A DNA stretch of 63,933 bases from an uncultured Prevotellaceae bacterium (GTDB lineage: Bacteria; Bacteroidota; Bacteroidia; Bacteroidales; Bacteroidaceae). The notes under the pieces were generated by a model, which was not told the DNA's origin, made no database searches, and saw nothing but the letters and a program-made list of their open reading frames with translations. A program made the position numbers and the translations under genes. The first letter of the stretch is position 1. Every line of letters starts with the position of its first letter. This document shows, in pieces, positions 3,611-63,933 of the stretch. The stretch lies in NCBI GenBank assembly GCA_902800435.1, contig CADCEQ010000036.1:1-63933 (forward strand), in the 5' to 3' direction.

Positions 3611-4765
3611 TTATTGGTTTATAGCTTTTATCTCAGCGTAGCGTATGATTTTCTCCAGCTGGCGTATGTCGCTCTCCAGCTGGTAGTATTCCTGTTCGCA
3701 GCCAAGAATCTCGGCTTGCATATTGCTTCTCTCGGCAATGTCGGCCTTTGTGGCATAGTAGTCGCGCATCTTCTCGAGATTGGTGCCCAGCTCGTCGTAC
3801 GACTTGCGCATCTTCATCAGGTTTGCAATGCGCTTGCTGTTGTCGGCATCCTGAAAGTCGGACAAGCTGTTGTAGACAATGTCGTCGTTGATGATAAACG
3901 TGAATTCAGGCTGTTTCTTCTTCTCCTCCTTGGGGCGTCTGCCGGCATTGTTCAGTCGGTCGAGTGTTTCCGTTCGCAACTCCCCGTCGCCCCAGGTATC
4001 GGCAATTCGCTCAATCTTGGCCCTGCTCCTGATGGCCGCCTTGTCGAGTTCTTCAGTCGAGTAAGTGATGCGCTTCTGGTTGGGAATAAAGGTATAGATG
4101 CACACCTTCCCTTCAGGCTGTCGGCGGTCGGTAGCAAAGTAGCCGATGCCGTTCATCTCGTCGATGGCGTACATATAGTCGTTGGCGCTCGAGTTGAAGG
4201 GCAGTCCGATGTTCTCGGCGAGCAGGTATTTTCCTGTCTCAGAGTCGTAGCGCGACACATAGATGTCGAGTCCGCCCAGCCCTTCGTCGCTGATGGCGGC
4301 AAAGTAGAGCGTGGTACCATCCGACATCATAAACGGATAGTTGGTGCGCTGGTATTGTCCGAGTCCCTCAAGCGGTGCCGGCTCGCTCCACGTGTTGCCA
4401 AGCAGGTCGGCCGTGTAGAGCCGTCCGTTTTGTGCAAACCAGCACTTGTTGCCAAGCTGGTTGACGTAGACGGTCGAGTAGGGCTGGTCCTCGCTCCTGA
4501 AGAATCTGTTGTAGCCCGTGACGGTGCCCGCCTCAGCATTCAGGCGGTATGACTCCAGAAAACTCTGCTTGTCGACCACGGCGCTGTCGATGAACATAAT
4601 CTGCTGGGTTGCCTCAAGCATATCCTCAAACAACTGCTCCTCTCTTGACAGTTCTACCACAACGGGCACAACCTTCTTCCTGACAGGGGCTTTGCGCTTC
4701 TGGGCGATTACCGGCATTGCCATCATGGCCGCTAATAATATAGTTGTTATCTTCATTTTTCTCAT
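3611..4765 (-). CDS. Secreted PD40/TolB-like beta-propeller protein of unknown function
   Basis: This 384-residue protein has an N-terminal signal peptide ending near AMPVIAQ. Several blades of the PD40 kind follow, recognisable as repeated SDG-x-LYF-AA and GGLDIYVSRYD patterns (about residues 140-185). The last 120 residues are charged and helical with likely coiled coil. Such proteins in Bacteroidales are periplasmic or outer-membrane-associated, often next to OmpA-like proteins, but no OmpA domain is present here. It is the first gene after a clear promoter on the minus strand (4788-4810) and is followed 15 bp later by the nucleoside phosphorylase. The function is unknown. Confidence 0.7.
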   Translation of the reverse strand: MRKMKITTILLAAMMAMPVIAQKRKAPVRKKVVPVVVELSREEQLFEDMLEATQQIMFIDSAVVDKQSFLESYRLNAEAGTVTGYNRFFRSEDQPYSTVYVNQLGNKCWFAQNGRLYTADLLGNTWSEPAPLEGLGQYQRTNYPFMMSDGTTLYFAAISDEGLGGLDIYVSRYDSETGKYLLAENIGLPFNSSANDYMYAIDEMNGIGYFATDRRQPEGKVCIYTFIPNQKRITYSTEELDKAAIRSRAKIERIADTWGDGELRTETLDRLNNAGRRPKEEKKKQPEFTFIINDDIVYNSLSDFQDADNSKRIANLMKMRKSYDELGTNLEKMRDYYATKADIAERSNMQAEILGCEQEYYQLESDIRQLEKIIRYAEIKAINQ

Positions 4766-61459: not shown

Positions 61460-61496
61460 CGGCCTAAGCCTAAAAGGTAAAAAAGTACATCAAGTT

Positions 61497-61527
61497 TTGC
61501 ATCCCTTGCAGATTTTTTGTACCTTTG
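61497..61527 (+). promoter_or_regulatory. Promoter of the structured RNA candidate
   Basis: TTTG 61497-61500 and TACCTTTG 61520-61527 are 19 bp apart. The predicted start near 61534 is about 270 bases before the next ATG and about 35 bases before the first helix. Confidence 0.75.
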
Positions 61528-61533
61528 CACCCG

Positions 61534-61742
61534 AAGACATATAATAAGACGAAGCAACCGCAGCTTTCTTGATATCTTCTCGAACCGCAACTCAAAAGAT
61601 GTAAACGGAAAGACGGCTGCCTGCTCACGGCTCCACAACGGAGGCGTGGGCTTTGGCAGTTACAGCACGTTTACATGGCCGTTGCGGGCCTGAGAAGATA
61701 TGTTGTAACATCCAATACACCCACCCACGTCCTCCGTTTTTT
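61534..61742 (+). ncRNA. Candidate structured RNA or attenuator leader (about 200 nt)
   Basis: Helices read from outside in: 61572-61581 with 61692-61701 (10 bp), 61585-61591 with 61681-61687 (7 bp), 61599-61607 with 61668-61676 (9 bp), 61617-61621 with 61655-61659 (5 bp), and the tip 61626-61629/61645-61648 plus 61631-61634/61640-61643 around an ACAAC loop. A competing pairing joins GGAGGCGTGGG (61640-61650) with CCCACG-T-CCTCC (61724-61735, one bulged base), directly followed by G and six T. No long plausible coding frame runs through it. I do not recognise a known RNA class. Confidence 0.55.
61736..61742 (+). terminator. U-run after the alternative stem (possible terminator)
   Basis: GTTTTTT directly follows the 3' arm of the 11-bp alternative pairing. 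Whether termination happens, and whether it depends on the fold, is not known. Confidence 0.4.
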
Positions 61743-61807
61743 CTCTTCTGCGCCTCGCGGCGTATGTTATATGTGTTTAATAACAAGGAATTAACGAAAA
61801 CGTGAAT

Positions 61808-62329
61808 ATGAATCAACAAAAAGAAGTCCCAGACAATCTGGGAGGGCTTGGCGACTTGCTGCCCGCCGATGTCCTGAAGATAATCAACGAACTGCTGGAG
61901 CAACTGCACCGGGCAGACAAGGAGCACCAAGGCAGCACCACCGTGATCAACTACTACGCACCGGGTAGCCAGCACGTGGATACGCAAATAATAGCCTCCC
62001 CCTGTCCCCCTCCGAAGAGAGGGGGTAACACTGACGGAAGGGAGAAAGGAACAACCTTGCCTGATGCACTTGGCACCGAGGAGGCAATGGCGCTGTGGCG
62101 GAAAGCCCAGACGGCGGGGTATGTGGATGACAAGTACCAGCCGCTCATCTCCCGTACTCAGGCCGCACTGCTGGCCGATGCCATGGCCAAGCGGCTGGGC
62201 ATCAAGGAGAAGTGGAAGGTGTTTGGTGAATTGTGGAAGCGGAAGAATCTGTATAAAGACTTTTATTATGCCCTCAGCCAAAAGCAGTCATTGGCGTTCC
62301 AGGACAAGTTGAAAGCCGTATTACGCTGA
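61808..62329 (+). CDS. Hypothetical protein of a VapE-type mobile unit
   Basis: This 173-residue cytoplasmic protein has no signal peptide. The N-terminal helix (LLPADVLKIINELLEQLHRA) is followed by TTVINYYAPGSQHVDTQI, a pattern of small proteins found next to VapE/VirE-like genes in Bacteroides. The linker IIASPCPPPKRGGNTDGREK is encoded by a palindromic C/G-rich element. The C-terminal half (about 90-173) is helical and Lys-rich. GTG 61802 is an alternative start. Its last CGC TGA belongs to the left copy of the 59-bp repeat. Confidence 0.6.
   Translation: MNQQKEVPDNLGGLGDLLPADVLKIINELLEQLHRADKEHQGSTTVINYYAPGSQHVDTQIIASPCPPPKRGGNTDGREKGTTLPDALGTEEAMALWRKAQTAGYVDDKYQPLISRTQAALLADAMAKRLGIKEKWKVFGELWKRKNLYKDFYYALSQKQSLAFQDKLKAVLR
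62006..62025 (+). repeat. Small C/G-rich palindrome inside the hypothetical gene
   Basis: CCCCCTC (62006-62012) and GAGGGGG (62019-62025). It codes for part of SPCPPPKRGG, comparable with the larger porU element. Confidence 0.65.
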
Positions 62330-62381
62330 ACCGTCCTGAACAGATTATACCCTCCATATATACCCGGTATATGGGGGGTAA
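62323..62381 (+). repeat. 59-bp direct repeat, left copy
   Basis: Identical to 63690-63748. It includes the last codon and stop of the upstream gene and ends in a hairpin-like TACCCTCCATATATACC / GGTATATGGGGGGTA sequence. Confidence 0.9.
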
Positions 62382-62504: not shown

Positions 62505-63686
62505 ATGGCTAACAATTTATACCTCAACCGCTCAATGGAAGCCATCATCAAAGAGGCCTCCCAATACTTCTCTGTTATCTCCGTTACAGGCCCCCGGCAG
62601 TCAGGCAAGAGCACACTTCTGAAGCATCTCTTCCCCGATGTGCCTAAATACAGTTTGAAAGACGTCAATGTCCGTGAATTTGCCGAGCACGATCCTGTTG
62701 CTTTTCTCCATCAGCATCCAGGCGGAATGTTTATCGATGAAGTCCAGAAAGTGCCACAGCTATTGGAATATATTCAGGGTATTGTTGATGACAATCCCGA
62801 TTGCCGGTTTCTGCTCACAGGCAGTTCTAACTTTGAACTACTTCATGACCTGAGTGAGTCGCTGTCAGGCAGAACTGGTGTTTACGAGTTGTTGCCTATG
62901 ACCTATCATGAAAGCGAGTCGACCATGAGTGAGATGTCTTTAGACGAGTTTCTCTATAGTGGCCTCTATCCTGCAATCTGTGCCAAGAAAAACAAGGCCA
63001 GGCTATTCTATCCCTCATACGTCAAAACCTATCTGGAGCGTGATGTCCGCGACCTGTTAAAGATCAAAGACCAGATGCAGTTCATGAAATTCATGAAATT
63101 CTGTGCCGCCAGGGTGGGCTCTATTTTTAATGCCTCCGAAATTGCCGGACAGCTTGGAGTCGATAGCAAGACCATTACCAGTTGGCTGTCAGTTCTTCAG
63201 GCCTCCTATCTGGTCACCCTACTGCCGCCATATTACGAGAATATCTCCAAACGCTTGGTCAAAAGCCCGAAGCTCTACTTTAACGATCCTGGTCTGGCCT
63301 GCTTCCTGTTGGATATTGAAAGTCCGCGCCAGTTGGAGCGCGACAAGATGCGAGGAGCCATTTTCGAGAACTATGTTGTGATGGAAGTAATTAAGCACCG
63401 TTACAACCGTGGTCTCCTGAATGGCGTTTACTTCTATCGCGACTCCAACCAGAACGAGGTAGACATCCTTCTAAAAGAGGAGGGCCAGATTACGGCCATC
63501 GAGGTCAAGTCGTCTATGACCTACCACTCATCATTCGAAGATTCCATCACAAAAATCTCTGAATGGATAAAAACACCAATAGCCAATAAAATCATTGTCT
63601 ATACTGGTGATTTCGAGAACACGACAGGCAACGTCAAAGTTCTTAACTACCGTCACCTTCAGGCCCATTTGCCTCACCCGGAGTGA
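62505..63686 (+). CDS. AAA-14 ATPase with DUF4143 C-terminal domain
   Basis: This 393-residue protein has Walker A GPRQSGKST (about residues 29-37) and Walker B MFIDEVQK. Sensor region LLTGSSNFELL, then a winged-helix-like segment (IFNASEIAGQLGVDSKTITSW) and a C-terminal PD-(D/E)xK-like core NQNEVDILLKEEG followed by IEVKSS, as in DUF4143. These ATPases are numerous and often multi-copy in Bacteroidota; the function is not known. It has its own promoter and is flanked by 59-bp direct repeats. Confidence 0.9.
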   Translation: MANNLYLNRSMEAIIKEASQYFSVISVTGPRQSGKSTLLKHLFPDVPKYSLKDVNVREFAEHDPVAFLHQHPGGMFIDEVQKVPQLLEYIQGIVDDNPDCRFLLTGSSNFELLHDLSESLSGRTGVYELLPMTYHESESTMSEMSLDEFLYSGLYPAICAKKNKARLFYPSYVKTYLERDVRDLLKIKDQMQFMKFMKFCAARVGSIFNASEIAGQLGVDSKTITSWLSVLQASYLVTLLPPYYENISKRLVKSPKLYFNDPGLACFLLDIESPRQLERDKMRGAIFENYVVMEVIKHRYNRGLLNGVYFYRDSNQNEVDILLKEEGQITAIEVKSSMTYHSSFEDSITKISEWIKTPIANKIIVYTGDFENTTGNVKVLNYRHLQAHLPHPE

Positions 63687-63689
63687 GCG

Positions 63690-63748
63690 ACGCTGAACCG
63701 TCCTGAACAGATTATACCCTCCATATATACCCGGTATATGGGGGGTAA
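63690..63748 (+). repeat. 59-bp direct repeat, right copy
   Basis: Identical in all 59 positions to 62323-62381 and 3 bp after the ATPase stop. Confidence 0.9.
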
Positions 63749-63786: not shown

Positions 63787-63933
63787 ATGATGCCTATGAA
63801 GGAACGAAAGAAAGATGAAGAGAAGAAGGAGCATAAGAAGCCGTGGCGGGAGTACACGGCGACGGTGGAGGACATCCAGAACTTCCTGATGGACCGCGTG
63901 CTGCTCAGGCACAACGTGATAACGGGGCGAGTG
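63787..63933 (+). CDS. N-terminus of a VapE/VirE-like protein (continues beyond window)
   Basis: The 49 visible codons start MMPMKERKKDEEKKEHKKPW, then REYTATVEDIQNFLMDRVLL, then RHNVITGRV. The basic start followed by a helix and RHNVITGRV resembles the beginning of Bacteroides VapE/VirE-type primase-helicase-like proteins (virulence-associated E). Only the start is present, so the assignment is tentative. ATGs at 63790 and 63796 are alternatives. Confidence 0.45.
   Translation, partial: MMPMKERKKDEEKKEHKKPWREYTATVEDIQNFLMDRVLLRHNVITGRV

Follow-up and report, generated by a model that had tools for sequence, protein, structure and literature searches.

Using a combination of methods (folding against shuffled controls, covariance models and comparison of homologues), we found that the window, i.e. 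the whole stretch of 63,933 nucleotides analysed here, carries a structured RNA behind a promoter motif, and that this RNA is real. It is probably, though by no means certainly, a cis-acting 5' leader switch, the tail of which has mutually exclusive partners that would set termination against read-through. Comparison of the members at the sequence level established the long rod, the complementarity of the tail to helix P5, the promoter motif and the leader position, as well as a second tail partner in about one third of the distant members tested. From these features, we infer that the competing folds control expression.

Fold, covariation and alternative pairings of the leader RNA

The segment 61534-61742 folds with a minimum free energy (MFE) of −73.6 kcal/mol, as compared with −51.0 ± 4.1 kcal/mol for 200 dinucleotide shuffles, none of which folded as well (z −5.5). 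The five nested helices described in an earlier, sequence-only reading of this DNA were all found, nested in the order given there (P1, 10 bp; P2, 7; P3, 9; P4, 7; P5, 7+4; Table 1). That reading had also given the RNA its own promoter, and we found a TTTG box, a 20-nt spacer and TACCTTTG, which we take from the consensus to be a promoter of the Bacteroidota type. Of the 138 distinct members, 116 have the promoter motif TANNTTTG in the 140 nt upstream, where Markov shuffles predict 14, and 66 have it together with an upstream T(T)TG box (1.4 expected).

Table 1. Positions of the leader RNA elements and of the genes behind them in the window.
Feature	Position	Strand	Basis or remark
Promoter	61496..61527	+	TTTG 61496-61499, 20-nt spacer, TACCTTTG 61520-61527; sequence
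Closing helix PC, 5' strand ACATATAA	61537..61544	+	Pairs with 61767-61774; full-leader MFE; compensatory forms in unit group
5' hairpin P0 (GAAGC...GCTTTC)	61551..61568	+	AGC-N3-9-GCT directly before P1
Whole core rod P1-P5	61572..61701	+	Fold, covariation, covariance-model matches
Core rod P1	61572-61581/61692-61701	+	Fold, covariation, covariance-model matches
Core rod P2	61585-61591/61681-61687	+	Fold, covariation, covariance-model matches
Core rod P3	61599-61607/61668-61676	+	Fold, covariation, covariance-model matches
Core rod P4	61616-61621/61655-61660	+	Fold, covariation, covariance-model matches
Core rod P5	61623-61629/61645-61651	+	Fold, covariation, covariance-model matches
Switch strand GGAGGCGTGGG	61640..61650	+	3' side of P5 and its apical stem; partners: P5 5' side or tail
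Tail CCCACGTCCTCC(G), then TTTTTT	61724..61742	+	Terminator-like alternative partner of P5
Small 3' hairpin TGCGCC-TCGC-GGCGTA	61749..61764	+	Inside closing helix; full-leader MFE
Closing helix PC, 3' strand TTATATGT	61767..61774	+	Pairs with 61537-61544
c0, 173-aa protein gene, first of unit	61808..62329	+	Start ATG 61808 or GTG 61802
AAA_14 + DUF4143 gene, inserted cargo between c0 and VapE-like gene	62505..63686	+	Flanked by 59-bp direct repeat
VapE-like gene, first 49 codons	63787..63933	+	Cut by window end; similarity to L031 VapE

Because a plain MAFFT alignment gave an RNAalifold energy of only −14 kcal/mol, in our opinion because helix lengths differ, a first covariance model was built from eight sequences parsed by hand. 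It found a sense-strand match in 53 of 67 sources (eight loci with promoter-only matches being excluded) and three further matches on the mirror strand, the mirror-strand matches being far weaker than the sense-strand ones. Covariation came out in favour of the fold: the 69 aligned matches, which come from 68 chosen sources, have 91.5% of their cells paired, 37 of the 41 pairs change on both sides, and 736 cells are double changes, versus 231 ± 12 after shuffling and at most 184 with the partner slid by 1-3 columns, in an alignment that is fitted to the model and so biased towards it. Single-sequence folds of homologues, which require no alignment, had the same shape in most of those inspected. 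A further alignment of mostly distant members (87 distinct of 100 rows) has 40 of 41 pairs double-changed and 1115 double-change cells versus 365; it keeps five weak mirror-strand rows, and about one fifth of its loci had already gone into the model. Across these 87 rows, the sequence of P5 hardly varies, the commonest pair occurring in 72-83 of them for six of its seven pairs.

The sequence-only reading had further proposed two folds that exclude each other. In the window, GGAGGCGTGGG (61640-61650) is indeed complementary to CCCACGTCCTCC (61724-61735), which precedes six T (61737-61742), and the complementarity covaries across members. Forcing the CGUGGG:CCCACG pairing gives −67.8 instead of −73.6 kcal/mol, so that the two mutually exclusive folds are of similar energy, the alternative being weaker by 5.8 kcal/mol. 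Since tail-P5 complementarity was weakly borne out when tested without gaps (41 of 135 members at p ≤ 0.05, 17 at p ≤ 0.01), we used duplex energies with swapped and shuffled controls: the tail-P5 duplex reaches −17.8 kcal/mol with the member's own tail, −15.2 with swapped tails and −10.4 with shuffled ones (n = 135). Among the 28 members with a non-consensus P5 strand, the own tail beats the mean swapped tail in 24 (mean −16.6 versus −13.1), such as L067, L131, L134 and L140, and is no better than swapped tails in the other four (L101, L133, L157 and L164).

Hereafter, unit-type members are the window and the loci up to L084 by locus number, including a few without the VapE unit described below (L080 and L081). 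The median cost of the terminator fold is 8.3 kcal/mol among 54 unit-type members and 12.1 kcal/mol among 76 distant ones, the rod being the MFE winner, and a tail-P5 terminator would require a long loop. When members were tested for a U-run no more than 8 nt from the paired tail, 50 of 54 of the unit type and 64 of 76 distant ones had it; a few members have none after the tail, as judged by eye (L172 and L173, the same places as L147 and L155). The combination of a CC-rich tail and a T-run is present in 52 of 57 unit-type (18.3 expected) and 62 of 81 distant members (10.9 expected). The motif AGC-N3-9-GCT of hairpin P0, directly before P1, recurs in both groups, in 44 of the 57 unit-type members as against 1.8 expected and in 59 of the 81 distant ones as against 1.0 expected. 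As the promoter motif, P0, and the tail with its T-run recur outside the model, they provide independent support that the distant members are real.

Two pairings reach beyond the U-run. First, the closing helix PC links the start of the leader to the segment past the U-run, so that the leader extends to about 61774, beyond the segment ending at 61742 that the sequence-only reading had delimited. In the unit group, PC has at least seven Watson-Crick pairs in 21 of 50 members, versus 16% with swapped and 8% with shuffled partners, and occurs in compensatory forms of up to 13 bp (L044). Among distant members, its signal is weak (−8.2 kcal/mol for the own partner, as compared with −6.8 for swapped and −6.3 for shuffled partners), and PC surpasses every one of the 20 shuffles in 13 of 74. 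Second, the tail of distant members (such as AGTTCC) has another partner about 36 nt beyond it, with an exact 6-mer complement in 21 of 66 members versus 1.6 expected, in nine different stem sequences. This partner, which we had first placed at the start codon, ends a median of 54 nt before the ATG in the 20 distant members measured; the start itself is thus not covered, and the first placement was dropped. In the unit group, the second partner is unclear (at least six pairs in 23 of 50 members, versus 28% with swapped tails).

Genomes, genes and the VapE unit

With the eight-sequence model, 34 of 399 genomes of the family (10 of 30 genera) proved to carry the RNA. A second model, built from the 69 matches, found it in 53 of 393 genomes (38 of 204 genera) of the order, which we inferred from the Prevotella loci to be Bacteroidales, and in four of 296 genomes of the phylum, one of which is the nearest genome, G001. 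Scans with sensitive filters gave 13 of 40 genomes for the order, 23 of 40 for the genus and 3 of 40 for the class, with G001 present in each set. Homologues thus extend past close relatives, to other genera and orders. Ten chosen genomes, most of them picked as positive, carry 1 to 15 copies each. A blastn count of 86 of 200 genomes of the genus was not taken as a family count, since most of the listed matches are short and promoter-only; 16 of the 200 have a match of 100 nt or longer.

A phage or plasmid origin was considered and rejected: blastn found the RNA in neither phages nor plasmids, and c0, the gene next to it in the window, was absent from plasmids (tblastn) and without a relative in IMG/VR. 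A loose sequence pattern hit at least 80 IMG/VR contigs, of which the second model matched five of those listed (three of them well), and a stricter pattern had no match there. Three IMG/VR contigs classed as viral contain the RNA (L254, L248 and L193), two of them (L254 and L193) without a close co-directional gene. Copies may also be paired, on opposite strands in L081, and on one strand, 1.5 kb apart, in contig C13 of genome G570. L176 (core 4459-4579, minus strand; 42.8 bits) is a weaker member that lacks the conserved P5; its core stands 156 nt before a metK-like ORF, as judged by eye, and L101, L102, L104 and L177 look similar by eye. Such members may form a separate sub-class.

The leader stands close before genes. 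For 133 members, the sequence behind the core runs to 400 nt or more (the other five of the 138 being too short). In 111 of these, the better ORF is co-directional and starts within 350 nt, a median of 97 nt after the core; in 10, the opposite strand has the better one, and the remaining 12 lack both. No gene lies close to some of the members that come from outside the order or from IMG/VR contigs. Distant members appear mostly to precede exported proteins, judging from the N-termini: in the group above L086, a crude rule found a lipobox or a hydrophobic N-terminus in 51 of 65 ORFs, as compared with 228 of 572 background ORFs of at least 150 aa. Ten proteins of this kind were compared with Pfam, which returned two BspA-type LRR_5 proteins (one with Por_Secre_tail), one Lipocalin_4 and one protein with Sel1 repeats, the other six having no Pfam match. 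The 2.2-Mb genome G731 harbours 12 copies (L160-L171), some of which precede lipoprotein-like ORFs with the motif HDYVDLGLPSGTLWATCNVGA or close forms of it (L170 and L171); these ORFs are a possible co-regulated set of surface proteins.

In rumen Prevotella, the RNA heads a dispersed unit comprising, in order, the RNA, c0, optional toxin-antitoxin or defence-like cargo on either strand, VapE or AAA_25+DUF6371, an HU-HIG protein and an Amidase_2 protein, the domains having been assigned from one representative each. The gene that the sequence-only reading had placed about 65 nt downstream is c0, the ATG of which follows the end of the U-run by 65 nt; the VapE-like gene itself starts only at 63787. 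Its first 147 nt resemble, in a single comparison, the L031 VapE protein (61% identity over 33 aa, E 3e-12), which carries VapE-like_dom. Of the suggestion that the RNA leads a mobile unit, one part stands, namely that the leader lies ahead of a dispersed unit; the RNA is not, though, specific to the VapE unit.

c0 has 2293 homologues at E ≤ 0.001 and no match in Pfam, PHROG, NCBIfam or PADLOC. The RNA lies upstream on the same strand in 34 of the 44 named-genome loci with a c0 relative (in L074 it runs into a truncated gene), and the profile search found no RNA in the remaining 10, some of which are cut by contig ends. Many records of c0 loci name ruminant samples. As for cultured strains, the RNA is present in P. 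ruminicola KHT3 (L048), and P. communis E15-14 (L072) encodes a relative of c0 but lacks the RNA. We considered c0 as an RNA binder and dropped the idea, its AlphaFold model being weak (mean pLDDT 59.5) and without a PDB match at E ≤ 0.001. The variable linker of c0 (about 61990-62050) contains the repeat-like stretch SPCPPPKRGGNTDG, and similar proline-rich stretches interrupt c0 relatives and the start of a neighbouring VapE-like gene, as if a small repeat had been inserted in frame.

What lies between c0 and VapE varies, which makes this gap look like a cargo slot: other loci have AbiEi/AbiEii, a GNAT protein or a 165-aa protein with no Pfam match, and the window has the AAA_14/DUF4143 gene, a PADLOC candidate defence gene (PDC-S01). 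The latter is flanked by an exact 59-bp direct repeat with a palindrome (62323-62381 and 63690-63748); no direct repeats of at least 14 nt were found around the cargo in 13 other loci.

A proposed switch and its alternatives

We propose that the cis-acting leader switch would operate as follows. Transcription would start at about 61534, and the nascent RNA would fold into the 5' hairpin and the long P1-P5 rod. Should the emerging tail take the 3' strand of P5, a terminator with its U-run would form and transcription would stop near 61742. Should P5 keep this strand, the polymerase would read on, PC would close the leader and the gene would be made. The downstream partner that the tail has in distant members lies past the U-run and would lock the tail away from P5; being present only in read-through RNA, it could lock the read-through state. 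Because the rod is the more stable fold, read-through would be the default, barring kinetic effects or a factor that tip the balance towards the tail. Control might also be exerted later, for instance at translation, and the minority of members without a close gene may be stand-alone RNAs.

An independent, trans-acting small RNA of about 200 nt, ending at the U-run, with the gene served by read-through or by its own promoter, strikes us as rather unlikely. It would account for the promoter motif that the RNA owns (116/138), for the U-run after the tail (50/54 unit-type and 64/76 distant members) and for the 22 of 133 members without a better co-directional ORF nearby (L254 and L193 having none close), and multi-copy small RNA families do exist in Bacteroides, e.g. 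FopS (PMC11697453). However, 111 of the 133 members stand close before a co-directional ORF, some conserved pairings (PC in the unit group, and that of the tail with its second partner) extend beyond the U-run, and 10 of 46 DUF805b RNA places lie behind a core. The published account of FopS describes a single-stranded 5' part and one terminator hairpin acting in trans (PMC11697453); this architecture, a single-stranded seed plus one hairpin, differs from the window fold, since the leader RNA, though multi-copy like FopS among the FopS/GibS small RNAs, is a long rod before genes.

Slightly less credible still is a leader bound by a protein instead of a metabolite, be it for autoregulation by the first gene, for processive antitermination or as a 5' structure against mRNA decay. 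The nearly invariant sequence of P5 hints at recognition, the 5' end is sequestered by the closing helix in the unit group, and HU-HIG-like ORFs stand behind L085 and L097. Against this, the downstream genes are very diverse, so that autoregulation by one gene product would not be general, and an alternative pairing that covaries is more in keeping with a switch than with a static shield.

It is very improbable that the element acts as DNA, as a recombination or replication hairpin of a mobile unit. In Prevotella it does head a dispersed, multi-copy unit, and several copies lie near contig ends, but the promoter motif stands directly upstream in the same direction, the mirror-strand matches are far weaker, and distant members precede other genes without the unit. 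A replication-control attenuator under antisense RNA, drawn by analogy with pT181-type plasmids, which control replication in this way, is hardly conceivable: an attenuator-like leader does precede a unit with VapE, but, of 138 members, 10 have TANNTTTG in the opposite orientation in the 150 nt downstream (shuffles of the upstream 140 nt gave 14), i.e. with no sign of an antisense promoter, and neither c0 in plasmids nor the RNA in plasmids or phages was found.

Known RNA families and the significance of the leader

Rfam 15 had no match in the whole window at the gathering cut-offs, and only a 16-bit best match over 61480-61820 up to E 5. In 40 further loci (two sets of 20), no family covered the core, the matches elsewhere being two tRNAs and one DUF805 RNA, and the 6S RNA models matched neither the window nor these loci. 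On this count, the RNA deserves the word undescribed that had been applied to it.

The DUF805 and DUF805b models do not match the core; their matches stand 3' of it. In L126, a DUF805 RNA (RF03081) match of 79 bits follows the core directly on its 3' side; in L168, DUF805b RNA (RF02914) occupies this position, just below the cut-off. In eight genomes, 10 of 46 DUF805b matches stand 58-102 nt behind a core (6/7 in G731, 2/9 in G627, 1/4 in G967 and 1/11 in G688), a lower bound since only eight candidate cores were scored in G967 and G688; the other 36 places have no core listed beside them. G033, G603 and G751 have no DUF805b beside a core, and G082 has no DUF805b match. Both families share genomes with the leader RNA and are orphan motifs that Rfam lists as cis-regulatory, the type proposed here for the leader RNA, but they differ in size (68 and 35 positions for DUF805 and DUF805b, respectively) and fold. 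Their Rfam class fits a composite leader.

Riboswitches and attenuators commonly work through strand-exchange platforms. Similarly to them, the leader RNA has a 5' position (as judged by sequence from the promoter in 116/138 members and the co-directional ORF in 111/133), a conserved multi-loop domain supported by covariation, an alternative pairing followed by a U-run, and several unrelated target genes per genome. It differs from them in that its core has no Rfam 15 match and its proposed switch role is read here from sequence. HMP2_4078, a structured-RNA candidate from the human microbiome, is also from Bacteroidetes and lies near phage-related primase/helicase-type domains (D5 N-terminal and phage integrase), but it is 109 nt long, palindromic on both strands and devoid of a predicted terminator (PMC8040213); going by this published description it differs from the leader RNA, although at the level of the alignments the two may overlap. 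The literature covered in part, supplements aside (including PMC9723704, PMC8040213, PMC11697453 and PMC2864571), gave no description of the leader RNA. We rate it as a new RNA class among structured leader RNAs.

A more specific form of the cis-acting switch, which we put forward tentatively and regard as doubtful, is an orphan riboswitch class of Bacteroidota that would couple a general intracellular signal (e.g. a nucleotide second messenger or stress) to a regulon of exported proteins, and that the VapE-HU-amidase unit would have adopted. If so, a single genome would hold at least 15 such leaders, and the VapE-HU-amidase unit would time its own expression with one of them. The tail would then be the hub, ending the transcript with P5 and locking read-through with its downstream partner.

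To our knowledge, few regulatory RNA classes are known for Bacteroidota, a dominant phylum of gut and rumen. A leader that occurs up to 15 times per genome, mostly before genes of probable exported proteins, points to a regulon that is invisible to annotation, and the covariance model lets further copies be found. The finding opens the questions of which signal is read for accessory surface proteins, and why a dispersed VapE unit carries the same reader.
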